DNA of 64,000 nt from an uncultured Rhizobiaceae group bacterium (GTDB taxonomy: Bacteria; Pseudomonadota; Alphaproteobacteria; Rhizobiales; Rhizobiaceae): the NCBI GenBank assembly GCA_937930845.1, contig CALHBJ010000001.1, forward strand, positions 62,001 through 126,000, written 5' to 3'. Below are positions 866 to 23,251 of the stretch, piece after piece (positions within the stretch are counted from its first letter, which is position 1; each line of letters begins with the position of its first letter). Made by a program: the position numbers and the translations under genes. A model generated the notes under the pieces. It ran no database searches, was not told where the DNA came from, and saw only the letters and a program-made list of their open reading frames with translations.

Positions 866-1828
866 CTAACGGTCCAAAACCAGCGTTTTGCCCACAAAGC
901 GGGATACGCAAGGCATAATTTTCTTGCCCGACTTATGTTCTTCTTCCTCAAGCCAATGGTCGTTGTGCACAAACTCACCGTCAGACTTGATGACGTTGGT
1001 TTCGCACATTCCGCACGCACCGCCGCGACACAGATAAGGCGCGTCCACACCCGCCTCCTCGATGGCTTCGAGCAGGCTTTGTTTTTCGCTCACATGAATG
1101 GTTTTTCCAGAAACGGCGAGTTCTACATCAAAAGGTTTGCCAGGCTCTGGCGCCAAAAACTCTTCATAGTGAATGCAGTTTTCCGGCCAACCTGCAGCGG
1201 TGGCTTGTGCAAGAACCCAATCAATCATGCCTTTTGGGCCGCATACATAAATATGCGTACCCAGCGGTTGGCCCGACAGAAGTCCTTCAACGTCGATCGC
1301 CTGATTTTGGTCGTCGTAGTAGACATGCACATTGTTGGGGAATTGCGAAGTCAACTCATCAACATATGAGCCCAGCGCAGGCGTGCGCACGGCGTAGTGC
1401 AGTTCAAAGTTGCCTTGATTGGCGGCAGACAATTGTTTAATTTGAGACAAAAATGGCGTGATGCCAATGCCGCCAGCAATCATCACATGCTTGCGCCCAC
1501 GCAAGTCCAGTGAGAACAAATTGACTGGATTGGAAATTACCATTTCCATTCCGGCTTTCACATGGTTGTGCAGGAACAGGGAACCGCCCCTGCCCTCATC
1601 ATCGCGACGCACCGAAATGGTATAAGCTGATCGATCCGTTGGGCTGCTCATCAAAGAGTAAGGGTTCAAACGGCGTGTTCCGTTGTCATCCATCTCCACA
1701 ACCGTGTGGGCCCCACCGGAGAAAGTCGGCATCAATTCGCCATCCGTCCGTTCAAAACGGAAGCGTTTCACCAAATCATTGACTTCAACAACGTCGGTGA
1801 CGCGCACATTCATCTTCGCCGCGCTCAT
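866..1828 (-). CDS. dmmB: Dimethylamine monooxygenase reductase subunit (flavin and 2Fe-2S)
   Basis: A 320-residue electron-transfer protein of the phthalate-dioxygenase-reductase type. The N-terminal third is a flavin-binding barrel (N-P-Y-S-L-M-S near residue 55). The middle is an NAD(P)H-binding fold with G-G-I-G-I-T-P-F. The C-terminal 85 residues are a plant-type ferredoxin with C-R-G-G-A-C-G-M-C and a final cysteine in M-P-C-V-S, the four ligands of a 2Fe-2S cluster. It should pass electrons from NAD(P)H to the haem subunit DmmC. Its ATG shares one base with the dmmA stop (TAATG), so the two are probably translationally coupled. The exact letter in dmmABC follows gene order and is less certain than the reductase role. 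Confidence 0.88.
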   Translation of the reverse strand: MSAAKMNVRVTDVVEVNDLVKRFRFERTDGELMPTFSGGAHTVVEMDDNGTRRLNPYSLMSSPTDRSAYTISVRRDDEGRGGSLFLHNHVKAGMEMVISNPVNLFSLDLRGRKHVMIAGGIGITPFLSQIKQLSAANQGNFELHYAVRTPALGSYVDELTSQFPNNVHVYYDDQNQAIDVEGLLSGQPLGTHIYVCGPKGMIDWVLAQATAAGWPENCIHYEEFLAPEPGKPFDVELAVSGKTIHVSEKQSLLEAIEEAGVDAPYLCRGGACGMCETNVIKSDGEFVHNDHWLEEEEHKSGKKIMPCVSRFVGKTLVLDR

Positions 1829-2436
1829 TATAAAATCTCCACTGGGTCTGGCACGTTGCCTGGATCTTCAGCGTCTATGCAGACCCCCTGAAATGCAGCC
1901 AACCTCCGTGAATAGTGATCTCGAACGAACAGGTTCAGTCCACAATGTGAGCAGACGAATGGGTCCGTGATCACGTCCTCAGTTATGCCTTTGCAGTGGA
2001 CGCACTGCATGCGGCGTGCTTTGGAACCGCGATGTTCGGTTTGGATCGATTGGAATGGATAGCCGACATTCATCGCTTCGCGTTGTGCTTGACCCATCAC
2101 CCCTTCACTGCCGGCAAGATAGATTTGCAACCCGTTGGAAGCATCACTCAATACCCGCCGGATGCGGGAGACAGCCGCCTCATAAGACGGTCCGGTATAG
2201 CACTGCTTGGCACCCAGACTTTCCAGCTTTGACACGTATTTTTCTTTCGTGTCCTTTGGTATGAAAATAATGTGGGCGCGGTCTAAAAAGCCATCATCAG
2301 CTTTTGCCACAACATCGAGTATGGCTTGACCGCCCTCTCCGTCAGCGATCAACAGGTGTGATGTTCCGTTGCGGGGTTCAAGTTCACCGTAAACCGGGCG
2401 ACTTATGATTGATTTTGGAAATTCAGTCTTTGCCAC
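1828..2436 (-). CDS. dmmA: Dimethylamine monooxygenase small subunit with C-terminal zinc ribbon
   Basis: A protein of about 202 residues. The first 130 form an alpha/beta domain reminiscent of a ferredoxin-NADP reductase NAD lobe (I-Y-L-A-G-S-E-G). The C-terminus carries a zinc ribbon, C-V-H-C-K-G followed about 13 residues later by C-S-H-C-G. This architecture fits the DmmA family, required with DmmB and DmmC for dimethylamine oxidation. An upstream ATG exists at 2463. I prefer the GTG at 2436 because AGGAGA lies about 9 bases before it, whereas the ATG has no ribosome site. It sits between dmmD (75 bases upstream) and dmmB (one-base overlap). What the zinc ribbon binds is unknown to me. 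Confidence 0.8.
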   Translation of the reverse strand: MAKTEFPKSIISRPVYGELEPRNGTSHLLIADGEGGQAILDVVAKADDGFLDRAHIIFIPKDTKEKYVSKLESLGAKQCYTGPSYEAAVSRIRRVLSDASNGLQIYLAGSEGVMGQAQREAMNVGYPFQSIQTEHRGSKARRMQCVHCKGITEDVITDPFVCSHCGLNLFVRDHYSRRLAAFQGVCIDAEDPGNVPDPVEIL

Positions 2437-2511
2437 GCGCGAAAGTCTCCTATCATCATGCAACTAAGGGTGCAGCGAAACGCGGCACCCTCAGATTGGT
2501 TCAAACCCGGC

Positions 2512-3660
2512 TCAGCCTTTGGCAGTGCGGATCGATTTATCGACATCATAGAACGGCATCTCTTCTGCGGTGGCTGCAAGCTCGGTGCCGTTGGGTTGTT
2601 TCACGGTCAGCTTGGTTCCAGGTTTCGCAGCACTTGGTGCGATGCGTGCGATTGCAACGCTGTATCCGTTCAACTCGGATGAGAGACCGTAGGTAATAAC
2701 GCCTATGTCCTTGCCGTCTTGCAGAACGCGAGCGTGCATTTCCATCTGTTCCATGCTGTCAGACAGTTTAACGCCGTAAATCTTGAAGCGCTCTTTGCCC
2801 TGTGCCGCGTAATGGTTCTCGGCACCAATGAAGCCCTCTTTGCCAGGCGAAACGGTGAAATCCAACCCAAGTTCCCAAAGCGTGTCACCACAAGGCTCAT
2901 CATCAAATGGGAAGGTCTCGGAATTGTCACCTGGATAGAAAAGCAAATAGCTTTCAATGCGCAACATATCGAGCGTGCTGAACTGCGTTGGGCGCACACC
3001 TTCTGCTTTGCCAGCTTCAAGAACACTGTCCCAGATATGGGGCGCGTCTTTTGCACGGCAGAAAATTTCGTATCCGCGTTCACCGGTATAACCCGTGCGA
3101 GAAATCATGACATCGCGGCCATAAAGGCGGGTTTGCATCAGACCAAAATAAGCGAGATCGCGAATGGCCGGAATTTCCTTGGCCAGGATGTCCACTGCCG
3201 CCGGTCCCTGCAGGGACATATCGTGCAGATCATCGTCAAAAATGACAGAACAGTTCTTAGCGGCTGCAACTGATGTCAATTGCTCCATACCGGTTCCGGT
3301 TCCATGAACCACAAGCCACGAGTTTACGGCAATGTGGTAGATGATGCAGTCATCGATGAATTTGCCCTGATCGTTCAATATGGAGGCGTAGACTGATCTG
3401 CCAGGGGCAATCTTTTCAACGTTGCGGGTTGTGACGCGGTCAATCACGTAGGCCGCATCTGCACCGACCACATGAACTTTCTTCAGACCCGATACGTCCA
3501 TCAGACCCGCTTTGGTGCGGATCGCTTCATAGTCGGCCTTCGCGCGCTCGGGAGTGTGGTCATAAAACCACGCGGTTCCCATGCCGTTCCAATCTTCCAG
3601 CTCGCCGCCGATTTCGGCATGACGGTGTGCCAGCGCTGACGTTCTCCATAAAATGGCCAT
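2512..3660 (-). CDS. dmmD: GcvT-like tetrahydrofolate-binding protein of the dimethylamine monooxygenase operon
   Basis: A 382-residue member of the aminomethyltransferase (glycine-cleavage T protein) family. Hallmarks are D-V-S-G-L-K-K-V near residue 65, L-Q-G-P near 145, S-R-T-G-Y-T-G-E-R-G-Y-E near 190 and a C-terminal barrel. In methylated-amine clusters this protein precedes dmmABC and is thought to trap formaldehyde on tetrahydrofolate as 5,10-methylene-THF; that role is inferred, not shown. The ATG at 3660 has GGGAGG six bases upstream; an in-frame start at 3684 lacks one. It is the first gene of the leftward operon dmmDABC and has a candidate operator at 3745-3761. It is distinct from a true gcvT: no gcvH or gcvP is nearby. 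Confidence 0.85.
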   Translation of the reverse strand: MAILWRTSALAHRHAEIGGELEDWNGMGTAWFYDHTPERAKADYEAIRTKAGLMDVSGLKKVHVVGADAAYVIDRVTTRNVEKIAPGRSVYASILNDQGKFIDDCIIYHIAVNSWLVVHGTGTGMEQLTSVAAAKNCSVIFDDDLHDMSLQGPAAVDILAKEIPAIRDLAYFGLMQTRLYGRDVMISRTGYTGERGYEIFCRAKDAPHIWDSVLEAGKAEGVRPTQFSTLDMLRIESYLLFYPGDNSETFPFDDEPCGDTLWELGLDFTVSPGKEGFIGAENHYAAQGKERFKIYGVKLSDSMEQMEMHARVLQDGKDIGVITYGLSSELNGYSVAIARIAPSAAKPGTKLTVKQPNGTELAATAEEMPFYDVDKSIRTAKG

Positions 3661-3744
3661 GTCAGACCTCCCTTTGACAATCAAAATTCCTCTTCAACAT
3701 ACAGAACGATGGAAGCTCAAAAATCAATACTGTGATGCAGATTT

Positions 3745-8587: not shown

Positions 8588-9919
8588 ATGGCTTCAAAAC
8601 TGGCTGAGTTCGCTAAACAAAATGGCGTGCAATATTTTATGGTGTCGTTCACTGATCTGTTTGGTGGACAGCGCGCAAAATTGGTCCCAGCGTCCGCAAT
8701 AGCCGACATGGAAGAAGATGGTGCAGGCTTTGCCGGCTTTGCCACCTATCTCGATATGACGCCGGCACATCCTGACATGCTGGCTGTTCCAGACCCCTCT
8801 TCCGTGATCCAACTTCCGTGGAAAAAAGACGTGGCATGGGTCGCGGGAAACTGTGTGATGGAAGATGAAGACGTCGCGCAAGCACCGCGCAACGTATTGC
8901 GCAAGCTGATCGCAGAAGCTGCCGACGAAGGCATGCACGTCAAGACGGGTATTGAAGCAGAATTTTTCCTGCTGACACCAGATGGATCGGAAATATCTGA
9001 TCCTTTCGATACGGCTGCAAAGCCCTGTTACGATCAGCAAGCGGTTATGCGCCGCTATGATGTCGTGCGCGAAATCTGCGACTATATGCTTGAACTGGGT
9101 TGGGGGCCCTATCAAAACGACCATGAAGACGCCAATGGTCAATTCGAGATGAATTGGGAATTTGATGACGCTTTGAAGACAGCCGATAAACATTCGTTCT
9201 TCAAGTTCATGACCAAGTCAGTTGCTGAGAAACACGGCTTCCGCGCCACATTTATGCCGAAGCCGGTTGAAGGCTTAACAGGCAATGGTTGTCACGCTCA
9301 CATCTCCGTTTGGGATGCACCTGGCAGTGCTTCCAAAACAAATGTTTTTGCGACCGACAAGGGCGAAGGACAAACAGGAGAGCTTGGCCTTTCTGAAAAG
9401 GGAAAGCACTTCCTTGGCGGCATAATGAAACACGCTTCTGCATTGGCTGCGATCACCAACCCGACCGTAAACAGCTATAAGCGCATCAATGCGCCACGCA
9501 CGATGTCAGGAGCGACCTGGGCTCCCAACACAGTGACCTGGACTGGCAACAACCGCACACACATGGTGCGCGTTCCAGGGCCTGGTCGTTTCGAACTGCG
9601 CCTGCCTGATGGTGCGGTAAATCCTTATCTGTTGCAGTCTGTGATTATTGCAGCTGGTCTTGATGGTGTGCGCTCCAAAGCCGACCCGGGAAAACGTCAC
9701 GACATCGATATGTATGCCGAAGGCCACAAGATCAAAGGCGCTCCGCGTCTGCCGTTGAATATGCTTGATGCCCTGCGAGAGTTCGACAAGGACAAAGGAT
9801 TGAAAGCTGCAATGGGAGAAGAGTTCTCCGCTGCATATTTGAAACTGAAGCATCAGGAGTGGAACGATTTCACGTCACACTTCTCCCAGTGGGAAAAGGA
9901 CAACACCCTCGATATTTAA
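8588..9919 (+). CDS. gmaS: Gamma-glutamylmethylamide synthetase
   Basis: A 443-residue enzyme of the glutamine-synthetase superfamily. It shows the beta-grasp start (V-Q-Y-F-M-V-S-F-T-D), the metal/glutamate motif G-I-E-A-E-F-F-L, E-D-A-N-G-Q-F-E, and the ATP-side motif N-G-C-H-A-H-I-S. GmaS joins methylamine to glutamate with ATP to form gamma-glutamylmethylamide, the first step of methylamine use in many marine alphaproteobacteria. Its place directly after mgsABC separates it from an ordinary glutamine synthetase or glutamate-putrescine ligase. GGGAGG lies 9 bases before the ATG. Confidence 0.9.
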   Translation: MASKLAEFAKQNGVQYFMVSFTDLFGGQRAKLVPASAIADMEEDGAGFAGFATYLDMTPAHPDMLAVPDPSSVIQLPWKKDVAWVAGNCVMEDEDVAQAPRNVLRKLIAEAADEGMHVKTGIEAEFFLLTPDGSEISDPFDTAAKPCYDQQAVMRRYDVVREICDYMLELGWGPYQNDHEDANGQFEMNWEFDDALKTADKHSFFKFMTKSVAEKHGFRATFMPKPVEGLTGNGCHAHISVWDAPGSASKTNVFATDKGEGQTGELGLSEKGKHFLGGIMKHASALAAITNPTVNSYKRINAPRTMSGATWAPNTVTWTGNNRTHMVRVPGPGRFELRLPDGAVNPYLLQSVIIAAGLDGVRSKADPGKRHDIDMYAEGHKIKGAPRLPLNMLDALREFDKDKGLKAAMGEEFSAAYLKLKHQEWNDFTSHFSQWEKDNTLDI

Positions 9920-14428: not shown

Positions 14429-14455
14429 CGAATGGCAATTGGAGGAAAGACGGCT

Positions 14456-15793
14456 ATGAAACGTGTTGCAATAATTGGTGCTGGTCCATCGGGTCTTGCA
14501 CAAATGAGAGCATTTCAATCCGCTAAAAATAACGGAGAAGAAATTCCCGAAATTGTTTGCTTTGAAAAACAGGCCGACTGGGGCGGATTGTGGAACTACA
14601 CATGGCGCACCGGTCTGGACGAGTATGGCGAACCTGTTCATGGCTCAATGTACCGCTACCTGTGGTCCAATGGTCCCAAGGAAGGTCTGGAATTTGCGGA
14701 CTATTCTTTTGAAGAGCATTTTGGAAAGCAGATCGCATCCTACCCTCCCCGCGCGGTTCTGTTCGATTACATACAAGGTCGAGTGGAAAAAGCCGGCGTT
14801 CGTGACTGGATCAAGTTTCGCACTCCGGTTCGAAATGTGGAATGGGATGACGCCGCAAAAACGTTCACCGTAACTTCCCATGACCTTTTGAATGACAAGG
14901 TGAGCACAGAGCAGTTCGACAATGTTGTTTGCTGTAGCGGACATTTCTCGACGCCAAATGTTCCTGAGTTCGATGGGTTGGACCGCTTCAATGGCCGGGT
15001 TTTACATGCCCATGATTTTCGGGATGCTGTTGAGTTCGCGGGAAAAGATATTCTCATAATTGGCACTTCATATTCGGCCGAAGACATCGGTTCTCAGTGT
15101 TGGAAATATGGTGCAAAGACAATCACCGTCAGCCACCGAACAGCCGCTATGGGTTATAAATGGCCCGACAATTGGACCGAAGTTCCCCTGCTGACAAAGG
15201 TGGTTGGCAATACGTGCACTTTCAAAGACGGCTCTACCAAAGAAGTTGATGCCATAATTCTTTGCACGGGATACCTACACCATTTTCCATTTATGGCCGA
15301 AGACCTGAAACTGCGCACGACAAACCGGCTGGCAACAGCGAGCCTCTACAAGGGTGTCGCATTGGTCGACAACCCCGCATTGATGTATATTGGGATGCAG
15401 GACCAGTGGTTCACGTTCAACATGTTCGATGCCCAGGCCTGGTGGGCGCGGGATGTGATTATGGGCAAAATAAGAACGCCCGATACGGCGACTATGAAAG
15501 CTGATGTGGAAGATCGCGTGGCGCGTGAGGACCAGGTCGAAGACGACTATGATGCCATTTGGTACCAAGGCGACTATGTGAAAGAGCTCATATTGGAAAC
15601 GGACTATCCGACCTTCGATGTTGAAGGTGCCTGCCAGGCTTTCAAACAATGGAAAGGCCACAAAAAGAAGGACATCATGACCTTCAGAGACAACAGCTAT
15701 CAATCTGTTATCACTGGCACTATGGCGCCGGCTCACCACACACCCTGGAAAGATGCCATGGACGATTCACTTGAAAGCTATATGCAGAACTGA
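14456..15793 (+). CDS. tmm: Trimethylamine monooxygenase (bacterial flavin monooxygenase)
   Basis: A 445-residue FAD- and NADPH-dependent monooxygenase that oxidises trimethylamine to TMAO. The FAD motif I-G-A-G-P-S-G is at residues 7-13. The flavin-monooxygenase fingerprint region [11 protein letters not shown] lies mid-protein. The NADPH motif is I-G-T-S-Y-S-A-E-D. The ATG at 14456 is chosen because GGAGG lies upstream and the length then matches characterised Tmm proteins; an in-frame ATG at 14432 lacks a ribosome site. Flavin monooxygenases vary in substrate, but the flanking tmoXWV and tdm leave little doubt here. Confidence 0.93.
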
Positions 15794-15827: not shown

Positions 15828-16223
15828 CTAGACTTTGTTCAGCTTCACCAGGCTGATGGCAACACGCTCAAATGCTTCCATTAACCTGGTCTTGGATGAA
15901 ACCGCTATTGCGACCTCATCCAAGGCCAGGTTCATACAAAATAGCCAATCATCGGCATGTGATTGAGTGATCGATATGTGCTCGTGCATTTGCTTTAAAT
16001 TTAGGTGGTGGTGTTTCTCGAGATAATATTTTCGACCACCCATAAACCCACACAAAAAATTAAACTGCTCGATTCTGGAGTGAGCCACACCATGTCCATC
16101 CATGTGTAGTTCCAAAATGCTGCGGCCACGTGGATGGGTTTCGATCAGATCATAAAATCGCTCGACCAAGGCCCGAACGATTTCCTCGCCGCCAATTTCA
16201 TCAACAAGACTGTTTGCGGACAT
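15828..16223 (-). CDS. Group II-type truncated haemoglobin in the tdm operon
   Basis: A 131-residue globin of the 2-on-2 (truncated) family. The probable key residues are Tyr24 (B10, in R-F-Y-D-L), His80 (proximal F8, in Q-M-H-E-H-I-S-I) and Trp93 (G8, in D-D-W-L-F-C-M), a set typical of groups II and III. F-L-C-G-F-M-G-G-R-K-Y-Y matches the E-helix/glycine region of group II. It starts 3 bases after the tdm stop on the same strand, so it is almost certainly co-transcribed, and it converges on tmm. Possible jobs are O2 supply or storage for the oxygen-dependent Tmm and DmmABC, or NO/peroxide handling; the sequence does not choose. Confidence 0.87.
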   Translation of the reverse strand: MSANSLVDEIGGEEIVRALVERFYDLIETHPRGRSILELHMDGHGVAHSRIEQFNFLCGFMGGRKYYLEKHHHLNLKQMHEHISITQSHADDWLFCMNLALDEVAIAVSSKTRLMEAFERVAISLVKLNKV

Positions 16224-16226
16224 AGC

Positions 16227-18596
16227 TTAGCTACGAGGCTTACTTTTTGTTGGATCGTAATGTGCAAACGGAACAATGGTGGCTGGCAGTCTCATCTGAT
16301 GGCCATCCAGCTTTCCAATTTCCAGTTCGGTGCCAATCTCGCTATGGGCGACATCCACGCGCGCAAGGGCAATATTCTTCTTAAGCAGCGGTGAACGCAT
16401 AGAAGACGTCACTTCACCAATTTGCGCACGCCCAATGTGAATACAATCACCATGGGCAACATCCACATTGCTATCGATGTCCAAACCGACCAGTTTCCTC
16501 ATTGGATTTTCTTTGCGACGAATAAGCGCGGAGCGGCCGATGAAGTCATCTTCTTTGCTTTTCAGGGGAACTGTGAACCCGATCCCTGCTTCGAACGGAT
16601 CTGTTTGATCTGAGAAATCATAACCGGCGAAAATCAGACCGGCTTCAATGCGCACCATATCCAAAGCCTCCAGGCCCATGGGCTTGAGGCCAAACTCCTG
16701 GCCAGCTTCCCAAATCGCATCGAAGACTTCTTCACAATGCTTTGGGTGGCACATGACTTCGTAACCGAGCTCGCCAGTATATCCGGTACGGGACAAAACG
16801 AAGGGCGTTCCGCTTTCGTTGTTCAATCGAGCAGGCGTAAAGCGGAACCATCCAAGTTGATCAAACTCAGGATTATGTGGGGCTGTCCAGACGATTTTTC
16901 GCAAGAGATCACGACTTAAAGGCCCCTGCACGGCGACATTGTGCAAGTGATCCGTGGATGATCTGATCAGCACATTCAGACCAAGCTTTTCCGCCTGTTC
17001 GCGAATCCATTCACCGCCAAAATCATTGCCACCGATCCATCGGAAATTATCTTTGCCAAGGCGGAACACGGTTCCATCATCGATCATGCCGCCATGTTCA
17101 TAACACATGGCCGTATAGACCACCCCGCCAACGGGCAGGGTTTTCATGTTGCGGGTGAAAATATATTGGCACAGCACCTCACTGTCCGGCCCGACAATTT
17201 CGAACTTCCGCAAGGGCGACAGATCCATAATGACTGCCTTTTCCCGGCAGGCAATATATTCCTCAATGGGTCCAGCTTCCGCGAAGCAATTCGCCAGCCA
17301 GTAGCCATTATACTCGATGAAATTACGGGTGTATTTTGCAAAGCTTTCATGGAAGCCGGTTTGTTTTGTCATTTTCGGCTCCGAGTCCGGTGTGGCGCGG
17401 GTTGCGATCGCGCGTGAAAATTTTTGTTCGCCCGAATAGGTGCGAACATGAATATCTGATGGGTTCCACCCATTGGCTGGGCTGGTGTCGTCGGGACACG
17501 CCGATGAAACACAAACGATGTCGGTGAGTGCCCTCAGCAAAACGTAGTCGCCGGGCCGGGACCACGGTTCATCGCTGTACATGACGCCATGTTCATCGAG
17601 AAATGTGTTGAAGAAGAAGTTGATTGCCATCCATCCTGGGCGGCCGGTGACATTGAATTTTTCCAGGGCCCCGTTGAAATTTTCCGAGCAGTTTATGTGC
17701 CCCGGATATCCAATATCGTCGTAATATTTTGCTGAACATGCCAATGCGAATGCATCATGGCGACCACAGGTGTCCTGGACAACTTCGACCAGTGGCACCA
17801 TTTCCTGATCATAATATTTTGCGTGAAGACCGGGCATTGGATAGGCATGCCCCATCAGCGTTCTCGTCGTGGTGACATCGAGAGCATGTTCGATGCCACG
17901 GTCGAGTTTGCGGGCGCTGAAGCACTCAAAGTCGGTGCATTGGCGACCATCCACATCAATGATTTGGATGAAGTCCCCCGCCTTCACGAAAAAGGCTTCT
18001 GCTGTTTGGGTATGAACGCGAATTTCATCCAGAGGTTCCGCCAATGGATCGGGCAGTTTGTATCTGGATTTGGTTTTGACCGTTGCGCGTTTTACTAAAA
18101 CCGTGAGCGGCGTGGTAGTGTTTTGAACTTCGGCATCCATTGCACCACCCGGTGCGGCAATGACGACAATACCGTCTCTTTCCACGGTCAGATCAACACC
18201 CTCGCCTGCGGGTGATGCTTCGCTGAAGAAACGAATTGCTTCTGCTTTCCCCAAGTCAATTTTGCGCGCCTCCAACCCCAGTCGCAACCCTTGAAGACTT
18301 TGATCATTCTCCAACAATAATGACTTTAGGCCCTGCGCGGTGCAGTTTGCTTTTTCACCCACAATTGAGGCGTCTGACTTTCCATCTTCACCTACGGCTA
18401 ATATTTCGCAAGGCTGTCCACCCTCATCGTTTGTGACCTTGATCGTATCGCCCTGCTCAACAGCAATCAAAACGGCACCGGAACCCAGCACCTGATAGCG
18501 CTCCGTACCTGGTGGCAGAGCAAATATACTGGGACGTATAATTTGGCTTGGTCGTGGCGGTTCAGCACTCACCTCTGGATAAACCAACTGATTCAT
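16227..18596 (-). CDS. tdm: Trimethylamine N-oxide demethylase (TMAO aldolase)
   Basis: A 789-residue two-part enzyme that splits TMAO into dimethylamine and formaldehyde. The N-terminal ~400 residues belong to the DUF1989 (urea-carboxylase-associated) family, with conserved cysteines in Q-C-T-D-F-E-C-F and V-C-V-S-S-A-C-P-D-D that in characterised Tdm help bind zinc. The C-terminal ~380 residues are a GcvT-like folate domain (M-D-L-S-P-L-R-K-F, V-Q-G-P-L-S, S-R-T-G-Y-T-G-E-L-G-Y-E) that captures the formaldehyde on tetrahydrofolate. Length and domain order match known Tdm. It is transcribed leftward, away from the small membrane protein gene, with a globin gene directly behind it. Confidence 0.93.
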   Translation of the reverse strand: MNQLVYPEVSAEPPRPSQIIRPSIFALPPGTERYQVLGSGAVLIAVEQGDTIKVTNDEGGQPCEILAVGEDGKSDASIVGEKANCTAQGLKSLLLENDQSLQGLRLGLEARKIDLGKAEAIRFFSEASPAGEGVDLTVERDGIVVIAAPGGAMDAEVQNTTTPLTVLVKRATVKTKSRYKLPDPLAEPLDEIRVHTQTAEAFFVKAGDFIQIIDVDGRQCTDFECFSARKLDRGIEHALDVTTTRTLMGHAYPMPGLHAKYYDQEMVPLVEVVQDTCGRHDAFALACSAKYYDDIGYPGHINCSENFNGALEKFNVTGRPGWMAINFFFNTFLDEHGVMYSDEPWSRPGDYVLLRALTDIVCVSSACPDDTSPANGWNPSDIHVRTYSGEQKFSRAIATRATPDSEPKMTKQTGFHESFAKYTRNFIEYNGYWLANCFAEAGPIEEYIACREKAVIMDLSPLRKFEIVGPDSEVLCQYIFTRNMKTLPVGGVVYTAMCYEHGGMIDDGTVFRLGKDNFRWIGGNDFGGEWIREQAEKLGLNVLIRSSTDHLHNVAVQGPLSRDLLRKIVWTAPHNPEFDQLGWFRFTPARLNNESGTPFVLSRTGYTGELGYEVMCHPKHCEEVFDAIWEAGQEFGLKPMGLEALDMVRIEAGLIFAGYDFSDQTDPFEAGIGFTVPLKSKEDDFIGRSALIRRKENPMRKLVGLDIDSNVDVAHGDCIHIGRAQIGEVTSSMRSPLLKKNIALARVDVAHSEIGTELEIGKLDGHQMRLPATIVPFAHYDPTKSKPRS

Positions 18597-18896: not shown

Positions 18897-19775
18897 TTGG
18901 GAGCCATCAGCTTTGGTCTTTGCGCGGCCCTCGCCTGGGGTATCCACGACATATTGGTGCGCCATGTCAGCCAAAAGCTTGGAATTTTAATAAGCCTGAT
19001 CTCGGTGCTTATATTTGGGGCGATTGCGCAATCACTGATGGTTGGCACTTTTGGCCAACCGTCGAATGTCTCCCTCGAAGGGCTGTTATTGAGCGCCGCA
19101 GCGGGAGGTGCGTTTTCCATCGCCTGCATAGGACATTACAAGGCTTTTCAGCGCGGCCCTGTCAGACTGGTGGCACCAGTTATCGGCTGTTATGCGGTGC
19201 TCGCCTTTCTGGTTGCCGCGTTGAGTGGAAAAACAGTCCTTTTGCCCCAATGGATTGCTCTTTTTGTACTCATTATCGGCATTGCTTTGGTGGCGCGTTC
19301 TTCTGAAAACGATAGTGAGGTCAGTGATCACCCAGATAGAAATGCAACTGCAAAGACCCTGATTTATTGCCTTATGGCAATGGCTGGATTCGCGGTGACG
19401 TTTGAGCTTGGGCAAAGAGCAAGCGCCATCGACGACCCACTCTCAACCAGCCTGATCACGCGACTTGTTACGATATCAATCATAGGGTCTGTTCTGTGGT
19501 TTCAAATTCAAAAACAGAACGGGTCTTTCAACTGGCCGGATCGATCCACATTGTTGATATTGGCTGGAATGGGCATTCTGGACGCAATCGCCTTGGGCGT
19601 CGTATTGGCGGCTGGCATTTTCGCAAGACCTGAATTTGCGTCCGCAGCTTCTTCCATCTTCGGGTTGGTAACAGTTATTCTTGCGTGGCTGTTCATGCGC
19701 GAGAAAATAAATCTGGTGCAATGGTCAGGGATTGCGGCCGTGTTTGCTGCCATTGCTTATTTGGCATCAGCCTGA
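18897..19775 (+). CDS. EamA/DMT-family transporter
   Basis: A 292-residue inner-membrane protein with ten hydrophobic segments in two five-span halves, the layout of the drug/metabolite transporter superfamily. The first half opens C-A-A-L-A-W-G-I-H-D and keeps the pattern A-P-V-I-G-C-Y near residue 98; the second half ends in E-K-I-N-L-V-Q-W-S-G-I. The start is a TTG three bases after the preceding stop, with GAAGG about 7 bases before it. Its substrate cannot be read from sequence. Its 3' end overlaps the 3' end of the convergent folD-like gene by 19 bases, which suggests it belongs to the cluster. Confidence 0.8.
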   Translation: MGAISFGLCAALAWGIHDILVRHVSQKLGILISLISVLIFGAIAQSLMVGTFGQPSNVSLEGLLLSAAAGGAFSIACIGHYKAFQRGPVRLVAPVIGCYAVLAFLVAALSGKTVLLPQWIALFVLIIGIALVARSSENDSEVSDHPDRNATAKTLIYCLMAMAGFAVTFELGQRASAIDDPLSTSLITRLVTISIIGSVLWFQIQKQNGSFNWPDRSTLLILAGMGILDAIALGVVLAAGIFARPEFASAASSIFGLVTVILAWLFMREKINLVQWSGIAAVFAAIAYLASA

Positions 19776-20656
19776 ACCCAGCCCGCATCGAGCTGTCTTT
19801 GGTGAGCAACAACAGCATTGCGCATCAAAATTGCAGTTGTGACAGGGCCAACACCACCCGGCACTGGCGAAATCCAACTGGCGACCTCTTTCACTGCATC
19901 AGTGTCCACATCACCAACAATGCCAGTGCTTCCATCGGGCTTATTAATCTGGTTGATGCCGATGTCGATCACAGCAGCGCCGGGGCGCACCATGTCTGGG
20001 CCGACAAGATGTGCTTTGCCAACAGCAACGACGACCACATCAGCGCGCCGTGAATGCATGGCCACAGAACGTGTCATATGGTGGCAAACGGTGACAGTCG
20101 CGCCTTGTGCCATCAACATCATCGCCACCGGCTTACCGACAATTTCTGAATGCCCGATAATGACGACTTCAAGGCCTTCCATTTTAAGGCCAGTCTCACG
20201 GATCAACTCAACAGCCGCCGCAGCCGTACACGGCGCCAATGCAATATCATTGTAAACGATGTTTCCGATTGAAGCAGGGTTCATCCCCTCAACATCCTTC
20301 AACGGATGGATTGCGCCCTGCAATGTTCGAAGATTGATATGTTCTGGTACAGGCCGTTGGAGAATGACACCCAGCACATCTGATCGATCGTTCATCTCTG
20401 TCAGCGCGGCTTTGCAACCAGCTTGCGAGATATCAGAAGACCAGGAGACCTTTTCAAAGGGAATGCCACACTTTTCAGCAGCCCTCGCCTGGTTGCGAAT
20501 GTAAACATCGACCTCAGGCACGTCCCCAATGCTGATCGAAATAAGGCGTCCCGTTGGATTTCCTGCCTGTTCAAACCCCTCAACGGTTTGCTTTACTTCT
20601 GCCAGAATTCGAGCTTGTACGGCCTTACCATCTATGAGGCGGTTTTCTTTCATCAT
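19757..20656 (-). CDS. FolD paralogue with substituted catalytic residues
   Basis: A 299-residue protein of the methylene-THF dehydrogenase/cyclohydrolase family. The NADP-fold motifs are recognisable but altered: G-H-S-E-I-V-G replaces the usual G-R/A-S-N-I-V-G, and C-H-H-M-T-R replaces C-H-S-R-T. The catalytic lysine (Lys54 in E. coli, in Y-V-x-x-K) is Gln56 here (Y-I-R-N-Q). The catalytic aspartate of K-D-V-D-G is Glu123 (K-D-V-E-G). The glutamine of the Q-L-P-L-P motif is kept as Gln100 (Q-R-P-V-P). Loss of the lysine is expected to cripple cyclohydrolase activity, so this may be a dehydrogenase only, or have another C1-folate role. It is the last gene of the leftward operon fhs-folD-folD-like. 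Confidence 0.85.
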   Translation of the reverse strand: MMKENRLIDGKAVQARILAEVKQTVEGFEQAGNPTGRLISISIGDVPEVDVYIRNQARAAEKCGIPFEKVSWSSDISQAGCKAALTEMNDRSDVLGVILQRPVPEHINLRTLQGAIHPLKDVEGMNPASIGNIVYNDIALAPCTAAAAVELIRETGLKMEGLEVVIIGHSEIVGKPVAMMLMAQGATVTVCHHMTRSVAMHSRRADVVVVAVGKAHLVGPDMVRPGAAVIDIGINQINKPDGSTGIVGDVDTDAVKEVASWISPVPGGVGPVTTAILMRNAVVAHQRQLDAGWVQADAK

Positions 20657-20670
20657 ACCCTCTTTGCCTT

Positions 20671-21573
20671 TTAGGCGGTCAAGCCTTCGGGCTCTTCCAG
20701 GTCATTTGCCCTGCAACATGCAGTCACTGTGTTGGCTAACAAACAGGCGATGGTCATGGGGCCAACGCCACCTGGGACTGGTGTGATTGCGCCGGCAACA
20801 TCACTGGCGGAAGCGAAGTCCACATCACCCACCAATTTCATTTTTCCTTCGCCCTTTTCGGGAGCGGGAATACGGTTGATGCCGACGTCAATGACCGTAG
20901 CGCCCGACTTGATCCAATCAGCATTAATCATTTCAGGCCTGCCAACTGCAGCAACAAGAATGTCCGCCTGTTTGCACAGAGCTTCAATATTTTTGGTGCG
21001 ACTGTGAGCAATGATGACTGTGCAACTGTCGTTCAAAAGCAGGTTGGCCATCGGCTTGCCAACAATATTGGAGCGCCCCACGACCACAGCGTTCAAACCT
21101 GAAAGACTGCCGTGATGGTCGCGCAACATCATGAGGCATCCCAACGGCGTGCATGGCACCATGGATTTCTGCCCCGTGCCCAGCAATCCCACATTGGAAA
21201 TATGAAACCCATCGACATCCTTGTCGGGTGCAATGGAATTGATGATCAGGTCTTCGTTCAGATGATCTGGAAGAGGCAACTGACATAAAATTCCATGCAC
21301 CGCTGGATCTTTGTTCAAGTCATCGATCAATTTCAAAAGGTCAGCTTCAGAAGTATCTGCTGGCAACTTGTGTTCAAACGAATTCATACCGACTTCGATT
21401 GTTTGCTTGCCCTTGTTGCGCACATAAACTTCGCTTGCCGGGTCTTCCCCCACAAGCACCACTGCCAGACCCGGCACAATATTGTAGTGAACTTTCAAAC
21501 GCCGCACATGAACAGCAACCTGTTTTCGAACAGACGCGGCAAATGCCTTTCCGTCAATCAATTGAGCCGCCAT
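20671..21573 (-). CDS. folD: Bifunctional methylene-THF dehydrogenase/methenyl-THF cyclohydrolase
   Basis: A 300-residue FolD with intact active site: Y-V-R-N-K keeps the catalytic Lys, C-Q-L-P-L-P keeps the Gln, K-D-V-D-G-F keeps the Asp, and G-R-S-N-I-V-G-K-P and [10 protein letters not shown] are canonical. It oxidises 5,10-methylene-THF to 10-formyl-THF with NADP. Here it would process the formaldehyde-derived C1 units made by Tdm, DmmABC and N-methylglutamate breakdown. It starts one base after the fhs stop and ends 14 bases before its diverged paralogue. Confidence 0.93.
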
Positions 21574-21574
21574 T

Positions 21575-23251
21575 TTAGAAAAGTCCTTCGATCAGTCCGT
21601 CATCATTGAGCATGATGCTCTCAGAAGAAGGCACACGTGGCAGACCGGGCATCGTCATGATCTCTCCGCACACCACAACAACAAAGCCTGCCCCAGCAGA
21701 CAGTCGCACTTCACGCACCGGCAATGAATGCCCGGTAGGCGCGCCACGCAATTTTGGGTCCGTCGAGAACGAATATTGAGTCTTGGCCATGCACACGGGC
21801 AAATCGCCAAAACCTGCCTTTTCCCACTGTTTCAGTTGATCCCGAATTTTCTTGTCCGCAAGAACTTCGTCGGCGCGGTAAATACGTTTCGCAACAGTTT
21901 CTATTTTTTCAAACAACGGCATGTCATCAGGATACAAAGTTTGGAACTGCGCCATATCACTGTCCGCAATTTCAGCAATACGAGTTGCCAGTTCTTTCGT
22001 TCCTTTTGAGCCATCAGCCCAGTGTTTGCACAGGATAGCCTCCGACCCCAGGCTTTCCACATAGTCTTTGCAGGCCTGAATTTCCGCTTCGCTATCGCCG
22101 TGGAAATGGTTGATCGCGACAACTGCTGGCACACCGAATGACTTCACATTTTCGATGTGGCGGCCAAGGTTCGGACAACCTTCTTTAACAGCTTGGACAT
22201 TTTCAGCCCCGAGATCTTGCTTCAATACGCCGCCATTCATTTTCATGGCGCGGATGGTTGCGACGATGACAACGGCAGACGGTGCAAGACCTGCTTTGCG
22301 ACACTTGATGTTCAAGAACTTTTCTGCGCCGAGATCCGCGCCAAAACCAGCTTCCGTCACCACATAATCGGCAAGTTTCAGAGCAGTTTTCGTCGCAACC
22401 ACCGAGTTACAACCATGGGCAATATTGGCGAATGGACCGCCGTGAACGAAAGCCGGGTTGTTTTCTAATGTCTGGACAAGATTGGGCTGCATTGCATCTT
22501 TGAGCAAAACAGTCATCGCCCCATCAGCTTTGATGTCTTTGCAAGTTATGGCCTTACGGTCACGGGTATAGGCAACAATGATATTACCAAGGCGCTCTTG
22601 CAGATCTTCCAGATCATTGGAAAGGCACAAAATCGCCATGACCTCGGAGGCCACCGTAATGTCAAATCCCGCCTGACGGGGGAAACCATTTGGAACACCG
22701 CCGAGAGACGTGACGATATCCCGCAAAGCACGGTCGTTCATATCGATCACACGTTTCCAAACCACGCGACGGTTATCGATATCAAGCGAATTGCCCCAAT
22801 AAATATGGTTGTCGATCATCGCAGACAACAAATTATGGGCAGATGTGATGGCGTGGAAATCACCCGTAAAGTGGAGGTTCATTTCTTCCATGGGAACAAC
22901 CTGTGCGTACCCACCGCCTGCGGCGCCACCTTTCATGCCAAAACATGGACCAAGCGACGCTTCACGAATGCAAATAGCCGCTTTCTTTCCAATAGCATTC
23001 AATCCATCACCAAGACCGACCGTTGTGGTGGTTTTCCCCTCACCAGCAGGTGTTGGATTGATCGCTGTCACAAGAATGAGCTTGCCATCTTTCTTGTTCG
23101 CTTGCGCTTTGATGAATTCAGCACTGACCTTGGCTTTATCATGTCCGTAGGGAACAAGGTCTTTCTCACCAATTCCCAGCTTTGCACCAATTTCCTGAAT
23201 TGGCCGCTTTTTCGCTTCTCTGGCAATCTCGATATCTGTCTTGAAGGACAT
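21575..23251 (-). CDS. fhs: Formate-tetrahydrofolate ligase
   Basis: A 558-residue enzyme that interconverts formate plus THF plus ATP with 10-formyl-THF. The P-loop is [11 protein letters not shown] near residue 67; T-V-G-L-G-D-G-L and [10 protein letters not shown] follow. In this setting it probably runs in the ATP-yielding direction, releasing formate from the FolD product. It is the first gene of a leftward operon with two folD genes. The 270-base leader to the upstream gene contains the 10-mer ATAAGAATAA (23328-23337), also present before tdm. GGGAGAGG lies just before the ATG. Confidence 0.93.

Follow-up and report, generated by a model that had tools for sequence, protein, structure and literature searches.

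The window, a stretch of 64,000 nucleotides from an uncultured bacterium of the Rhizobiaceae, contains two adjacent folD genes, here called folD1 and folD2. The features considered below are the following:

1828..2463, minus strand: DmmA-family dimethylamine monooxygenase subunit (NCBIfam NF041259, 111 bits, cut-off 60)
2512..3684, minus strand: GcvT-like protein of the dimethylamine monooxygenase group, which we take to be DmmD-like (NCBIfam GcvT-type matches, all below cut-offs)
8588..9919, plus strand: type III glutamine synthetase-like gene, presumably gmaS, judging by context (NCBIfam TIGR03105, 657.7 bits, cut-off 469.6)
14432..15793, plus strand: tmm, trimethylamine monooxygenase (NCBIfam NF058570, 830.9 bits, cut-off 675)
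16227..18596, minus strand: tdm, trimethylamine N-oxide demethylase with a GcvT-like C-terminal part (NCBIfam NF053776, 1213.4 bits, cut-off 1100)
18897..19775, plus strand: transporter-like gene, product presumably EamA-like, convergent with folD2 and overlapping its 3' end by 19 bases
19757..20656, minus strand: folD2, protein of 299 aa with a predicted FolD fold and Q56/R101/E123/H169/H193
20671..21573, minus strand: folD1, intact YXXXK and DVDG motifs (NCBIfam NF010785, 511.2 bits, cut-off 396)
21575..23251, minus strand: fhs, formate-THF ligase, 558 aa (PF01268, E 1.8e-270)

On the minus strand the genes thus run fhs-folD1-folD2, separated by 1 and 14 bases, with tdm downstream, and these coordinates bear out the earlier note, which had placed two adjacent folD genes after fhs. 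The folD2 frame is open throughout and begins with ATG, as seen in the list of open reading frames and the translation. Tdm and Tmm both score above the NCBIfam equivalog cut-offs. The membrane transporter-like gene, relatives of which are transcribed in the direction opposite to that of folD2 in 27 loci, gave no match in an NCBIfam scan at E 1e-20, and neither did a 131-aa open reading frame located between tmm and tdm (15828-16223, minus strand; relatives in 21 loci), whose product we take, by eye, to be globin-like.

FolD2 contains the PF02882 NAD(P)-binding domain (197.4 bits, cut-off 27), and its AlphaFold2 model, derived from 49 sequences, has a mean pLDDT of 90.0 and a pTM of 0.88. When the model was compared with the PDB using Foldseek, the best 50 matches listed were all FolD or MTHFD proteins (TMq 0.82-0.90, E 5e-32 to 4e-29); human MTHFD2 came first among them, MTHFD2 and MTHFD2L being among the best structural neighbours listed (TMq 0.87-0.90), and the E. 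coli FolD chains listed gave TMq values of 0.82-0.87. FolD2 reached none of the NCBIfam FolD cut-offs among the 25 families listed out of 30, its best score being 259.1 bits where 421 were required. Of the features expected of a bifunctional FolD, the protein therefore has the PF02882 domain and, as modelled, the fold, as well as Gln100 and the glycine loop, and it lacks both the catalytic Lys of the YXXXK motif and the Asp that binds the pterin head group.

The motifs of FolD2 are Y52-I-R-N-Q56, Q100, K-D-V-E123-G, G168-H-S-E and C191-H-H-M-T-R; those of FolD1 (Y-V-R-N-K, D-V-D-G, G-R-S-N, H-S-R-T) are canonical and the protein is presumably bifunctional. The earlier note had read Gln56 for the Lys, Glu123 for the Asp, a retained Gln100 and the G-H-S-E and C-H-H-M-T-R motifs, and all of these residues are as it stated. 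We aligned 163 distinct FolD sequences, mostly alphaproteobacterial and drawn from the loci that we fetched, 107 with Q56 and 56 others. Q56, E123, H169 and H193 occur jointly in 107/107 FolD2-type sequences (Gln at the catalytic Lys, Glu at the pterin-head-group Asp) and in 0/56 other FolDs, which have K56 in 55/56 cases and D123 in 56/56. A further change, absent from the earlier note, is just as constant: R101 replaces the usual L101 in 107/107. The place of Arg169 is occupied in the 56 other FolDs by 54 Arg and 2 Ala, and that of Ser193 by 53 Ser, 2 Arg and 1 Ala, so that neither place is strictly constant in ordinary FolDs. All 163 sequences share Y52, Q100, P102, K120, D121 and the P-G-G-x-G loop. 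FolD2 thus resembles bacterial FolD, as represented by the E. coli enzyme, in having Tyr52, Gln100, the glycine loop and the PF02882 domain, and differs from it by K56Q, L101R, D123E, R169H and S193H, at about 32-42% identity; at the last two of these places the E. coli enzyme itself carries Ala and Arg.

The position of these changes can be judged against the human enzyme, for which the available part of PMC3368264 lists seven key catalytic-site residues (Tyr52, Lys56, Gln100, Leu101, Asp125, Gly273 and Gly276) and assigns the binding of the NADP 2'-phosphate in MTHFD1 to Arg173, His196 and Ser197, Ser197 being also named as a ligand in the portion of PMC9173628 at hand. In that numbering, FolD2 is changed at three of the seven key catalytic residues and at two of the three 2'-phosphate ligands, with His at both the Arg and the Ser places. 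Since the changes are joint and fixed in 107/107 relatives, they are not random losses: as read from the alignment, the switch is a set of changes within an otherwise conserved site. A replacement of V40 by Ser near the Lys was dropped as a sign of a changed site, because the bifunctional Leishmania enzyme also has Ser40 (PMC3368264, same part). One of the 56 other FolDs, an actinobacterial protein encoded on an Embleya plasmid (L159, 192-1028), has Ile at the catalytic-Lys place, possibly an independent loss.

The tree comprised 106 rows, namely 50 FolD2 sequences and the 56 others, the remaining 57 of the 107 FolD2 sequences having been omitted by sampling. In it, FolD2 formed one side of one branch, supported at 100/99 by a bootstrap that had not quite settled, and its stem measured 1.36 changes per site; the midpoint root serves for drawing only, and the software issued a long-branch warning for FolD2 and the Embleya row. 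At 55% identity or more, FolD2 was found in 14 of 241 alphaproteobacterial genomes, spanning 10 families, with the next best match at 42%; at E 1e-70 it was found in 15 of 397 genomes of the phylum, all of them Alphaproteobacteria and 8 belonging to one genus of the window's family. The gene is also present in Rhodobacter capsulatus, in strains DSM 1710 and SP108. Matches to FolD2 also occur in records titled Thiothrix, Gammaproteobacteria and Enemella, which may be transfers or mis-binned contigs.

The FolD2 clade is under purifying selection: in four pairs of relatives, dN was 0.033-0.085 and dS 0.65-2.8, while comparison of the folD2 gene of the window with two relatives gave a dN of 0.16-0.17 at saturated dS. 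A pseudogene or a sequencing error is ruled out by the changes common to 107/107 sequences and by a dN far below dS in the measured pairs. In-frame stops were flagged in three relatives; the two examined are ordinary C-terminal stops, and the third is L130. Judged from its sequences, FolD2 is a real and stable FolD subfamily with a rebuilt active site. Our literature searches, for which subscription journals were mostly outside reach, found no earlier description of such a subfamily.

We then asked which genes accompany FolD2. All 14 FolD2 genomes gave at least two FolD matches at E 1e-20 (three in G000), the place of another FolD being printed for 12 of them (not G013 and G220), so that an ordinary FolD stays at hand. 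Fhs was above the cut-off in 14/14 FolD2 genomes as compared to 99/227 others (Fisher p 1.6e-5), and at least 10 GcvT matches, tallied by hand, were present in 12/14 versus 18/227 (p 1.1e-10), the remaining two FolD2 genomes having 5 (G013) and 3 (G051). Tdm was detected at E 1e-100 in 8/14 versus 12/227 genomes (p 1.1e-6), one of the eight (G018) on the basis of a partial match at 44% identity, and was missing from the other 6/14. All these p values, and that given below for PurU, come from tests on the 241 genomes that ignore kinship (14 FolD2 genomes, 10 families). PurU was above the cut-off in 1/14 FolD2 genomes versus 61/227 others (Fisher p 0.08), and the genome counts neither support nor firmly exclude it as a partner.

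The local neighbourhoods are more diverse. Among 82 folD2 loci, tdm (at least 50% identity) was found in 35, fhs in 12, folD1 in 19 and fdh in 9, one or more of the C1 genes sought being present in 56; a folD1 overlooked by the script in L005, where the record annotates it next to folD2, makes a 20th adjacent case. For the 46 loci flanked by 7 kb or more on each side, the figures were 20 for tdm, 30 for at least one C1 gene and 16 for none of those sought. One of tdm, tmm, gmaS, mgs or tmo lies beside folD2 in 38/82 loci and in 21/46 of the well-flanked ones. Three genomes of family f20 (L127, L153 and L154) have the trio in the other order, fhs-folD2-folD1, with ftsH close by in L153; in Ruegeria pomeroyi, the legend of a supplementary figure of PMC4744692 places folD, tmm, tdm, ftsH and formate dehydrogenase genes around two fhs copies. 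Away from tdm, the neighbours of folD2 identified by Pfam and NCBIfam scans have mostly unrelated functions, with the exception of formate dehydrogenase subunits and GbdR-like regulators. An FAD-dependent oxidoreductase is encoded beside folD2 in L116, and a 1006-aa GcvT-containing protein near it in L125.

The earlier suggestion of a clade confined to methylated-amine clusters does not hold, given that tdm is found in 20/46 well-flanked loci, none of the C1 genes sought in 16/46 and no Tdm match at E 1e-100 in 6/14 genomes. Nor is the clade unlinked to C1 genes, as it is associated at genome level with those that depend on THF (Fhs in 14/14). Because Tdm accompanies FolD2 in 8/14 genomes only and folD2 is often found at a distance from methylamine genes, the association of FolD2 extends beyond methylamine clusters and concerns THF-dependent demethylation more broadly.

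What, then, does the rebuilt site do? The nearest bacterial mutant that we found in print is E. coli FolD K54N, which, according to the accessible text of PMC5688156, retains about 19% of the dehydrogenase activity with undetectable cyclohydrolase. As in FolD2, the Lys is replaced there by a polar amide residue and dehydrogenation partly persists; unlike FolD2, the mutant is described in that text as a single mutation selected by carolacton, without the other changes. By contrast, the portion of PMC6443876 at our disposal reports that Bombyx MTHFD K53A has near wild-type cyclohydrolase and dehydrogenase activities, so that loss of the Lys need not abolish the cyclohydrolase, and that the kinetics of D120A for methylene-THF were not measurable, which indicates that a changed Asp could damage the dehydrogenase, although FolD2 has Glu and not Ala. 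The earlier note had predicted a loss of cyclohydrolase and offered a dehydrogenase-only protein as one possibility; on the strength of the clade-fixed changes and of E. coli K54N, the latter stands as the best reading, with the Bombyx K53A result counting against it. FolD2 is therefore, by analogy with the E. coli mutant, probably a methylene-THF enzyme with dehydrogenase activity only, the cyclohydrolase being lost or barely left.

The main alternative, which we consider unlikely, is that FolD2 has kept both activities, with R101 or some other fixed substitution doing the job of Lys56, so that the site would be rewired and not crippled. Bombyx K53A shows that such retention can occur, R101 is present in 107/107 sequences at a position listed as key (PMC3368264, in the part cited), and the changes are fixed rather than decaying; however, E. 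coli K54N lacks detectable cyclohydrolase, and the further FolD match in 14/14 genomes implies that FolD2 need not keep this activity. Even less probable is a different substrate or pterin, such as another C1-folate, with Glu123 and Arg101 reshaping the pterin pocket. An Asp to Glu change fixed in all FolD2 sequences at a residue contacting the pterin head group (PMC3368264, as above) and the length of the stem (1.36 changes per site) would fit this idea, but no change has touched Y52, Q100 or the glycine loop, and the genome-level partners are THF enzymes; an alternative C1-folate, also raised by the earlier note, found no positive evidence here. Finally, it is very improbable that FolD2, itself non-catalytic or regulatory, pairs with FolD1 in mixed dimers, for although folD1 is adjacent in 19/82 loci by script plus the annotated 20th and both gene orders are found, 62/82 loci (some ending at contig ends) have no adjacent folD1 and the invariant substrate-site and nucleotide-site residues are retained.

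The cofactor of a dehydrogenase-only FolD2 is less readily predicted. The replacement of two of the three 2'-phosphate ligands makes the use of NAD, which the earlier note had named as a possibility, plausible; yet E. coli FolD, in which our alignment shows Ala and Arg at the corresponding two positions, is described as NADP-using (PMC6443876, available portion), so that it dispenses with both ligands and weakens the argument. We therefore lean only slightly towards an NAD-linked over an NADP-linked FolD2, and give this less weight than the dehydrogenase-only reading. Human MTHFD2 is comparable in that the Ser197 place is replaced in both proteins and in that FolD2 would share its role in catabolic C1 oxidation; it differs in having Lys88, Asp155 and, at the Ser197 place, Arg233 (PMC9173628, same portion), the corresponding residues of FolD2 being Gln, Glu and His.

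Yeast MTD1 is a monofunctional NAD-linked methylene-THF dehydrogenase, and the activity proposed for FolD2 would be like it, but the two proteins appear to be very distant, 1edz being the weakest of 27 PDB matches (E 1.5e-7). Among bacteria, a monofunctional Peptostreptococcus enzyme is mentioned in PMC6443876 (portion cited), indicating that dehydrogenase-only enzymes are already known there.

In the pathway that we envisage, Tdm, DmmD-like proteins and the enzymes oxidising N-methylglutamate and sarcosine would load formaldehyde onto THF, and FolD2 would oxidise the resulting 5,10-methylene-THF to 5,10-methenyl-THF. The methenyl-THF would then be hydrolysed to 10-formyl-THF, either spontaneously or by an ordinary FolD of the same cell (FolD1 in this case), and from it Fhs, running in reverse, would produce formate and ATP; formate dehydrogenase would convert the formate into CO2 and NADH. 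The available text of PMC4744692 describes Fhs as important for methyl-group oxidation in Ruegeria pomeroyi. Our fullest proposal, to which we give somewhat less than even credence, is that an old, unnamed alphaproteobacterial branch of FolD may be a dedicated NAD-linked, cyclohydrolase-free methylene-THF dehydrogenase with a new residue set, Gln56-Arg101-Glu123, through which methyl groups of methylated amines and betaines would be oxidised to yield NADH, leaving biosynthesis to the ordinary FolD.

FolD2 is an uncharacterised variant of a known family, and published models of marine methyl-group oxidation treat FolD as one bifunctional step (PMC3160333 and PMC4744692, in the parts available). 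If the proposal is true, a separate dehydrogenase alters the redox bookkeeping (NADH versus NADPH) in the catabolism of trimethylamine, betaine and the like, and FolD2 provides natural sequences in which the two activities of FolD are split, a matter that has long occupied mechanistic studies. The label 'bifunctional' would then be wrong in both of the annotated records among the three plasmid records that match at 60% or more.

The source genome (3.76 Mb, 16 contigs) offers further context. A separate FchA-type cyclohydrolase was rejected as a partner of FolD2, as PF04961 had no match in this genome. It has three FolDs, namely folD1, folD2 and a gene at C1:842903-843778 (L165), which is flanked on one side by a sarcosine oxidase alpha gene and on the other by a GbdR-like regulator gene scoring under its family cut-off; the place of this third FolD points to two separate demethylation clusters, each with an ordinary FolD. 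A second fhs, 93.9% identical to that of the window, lies downstream of formate dehydrogenase genes in the C4:75943-80558 region of another contig (L164).
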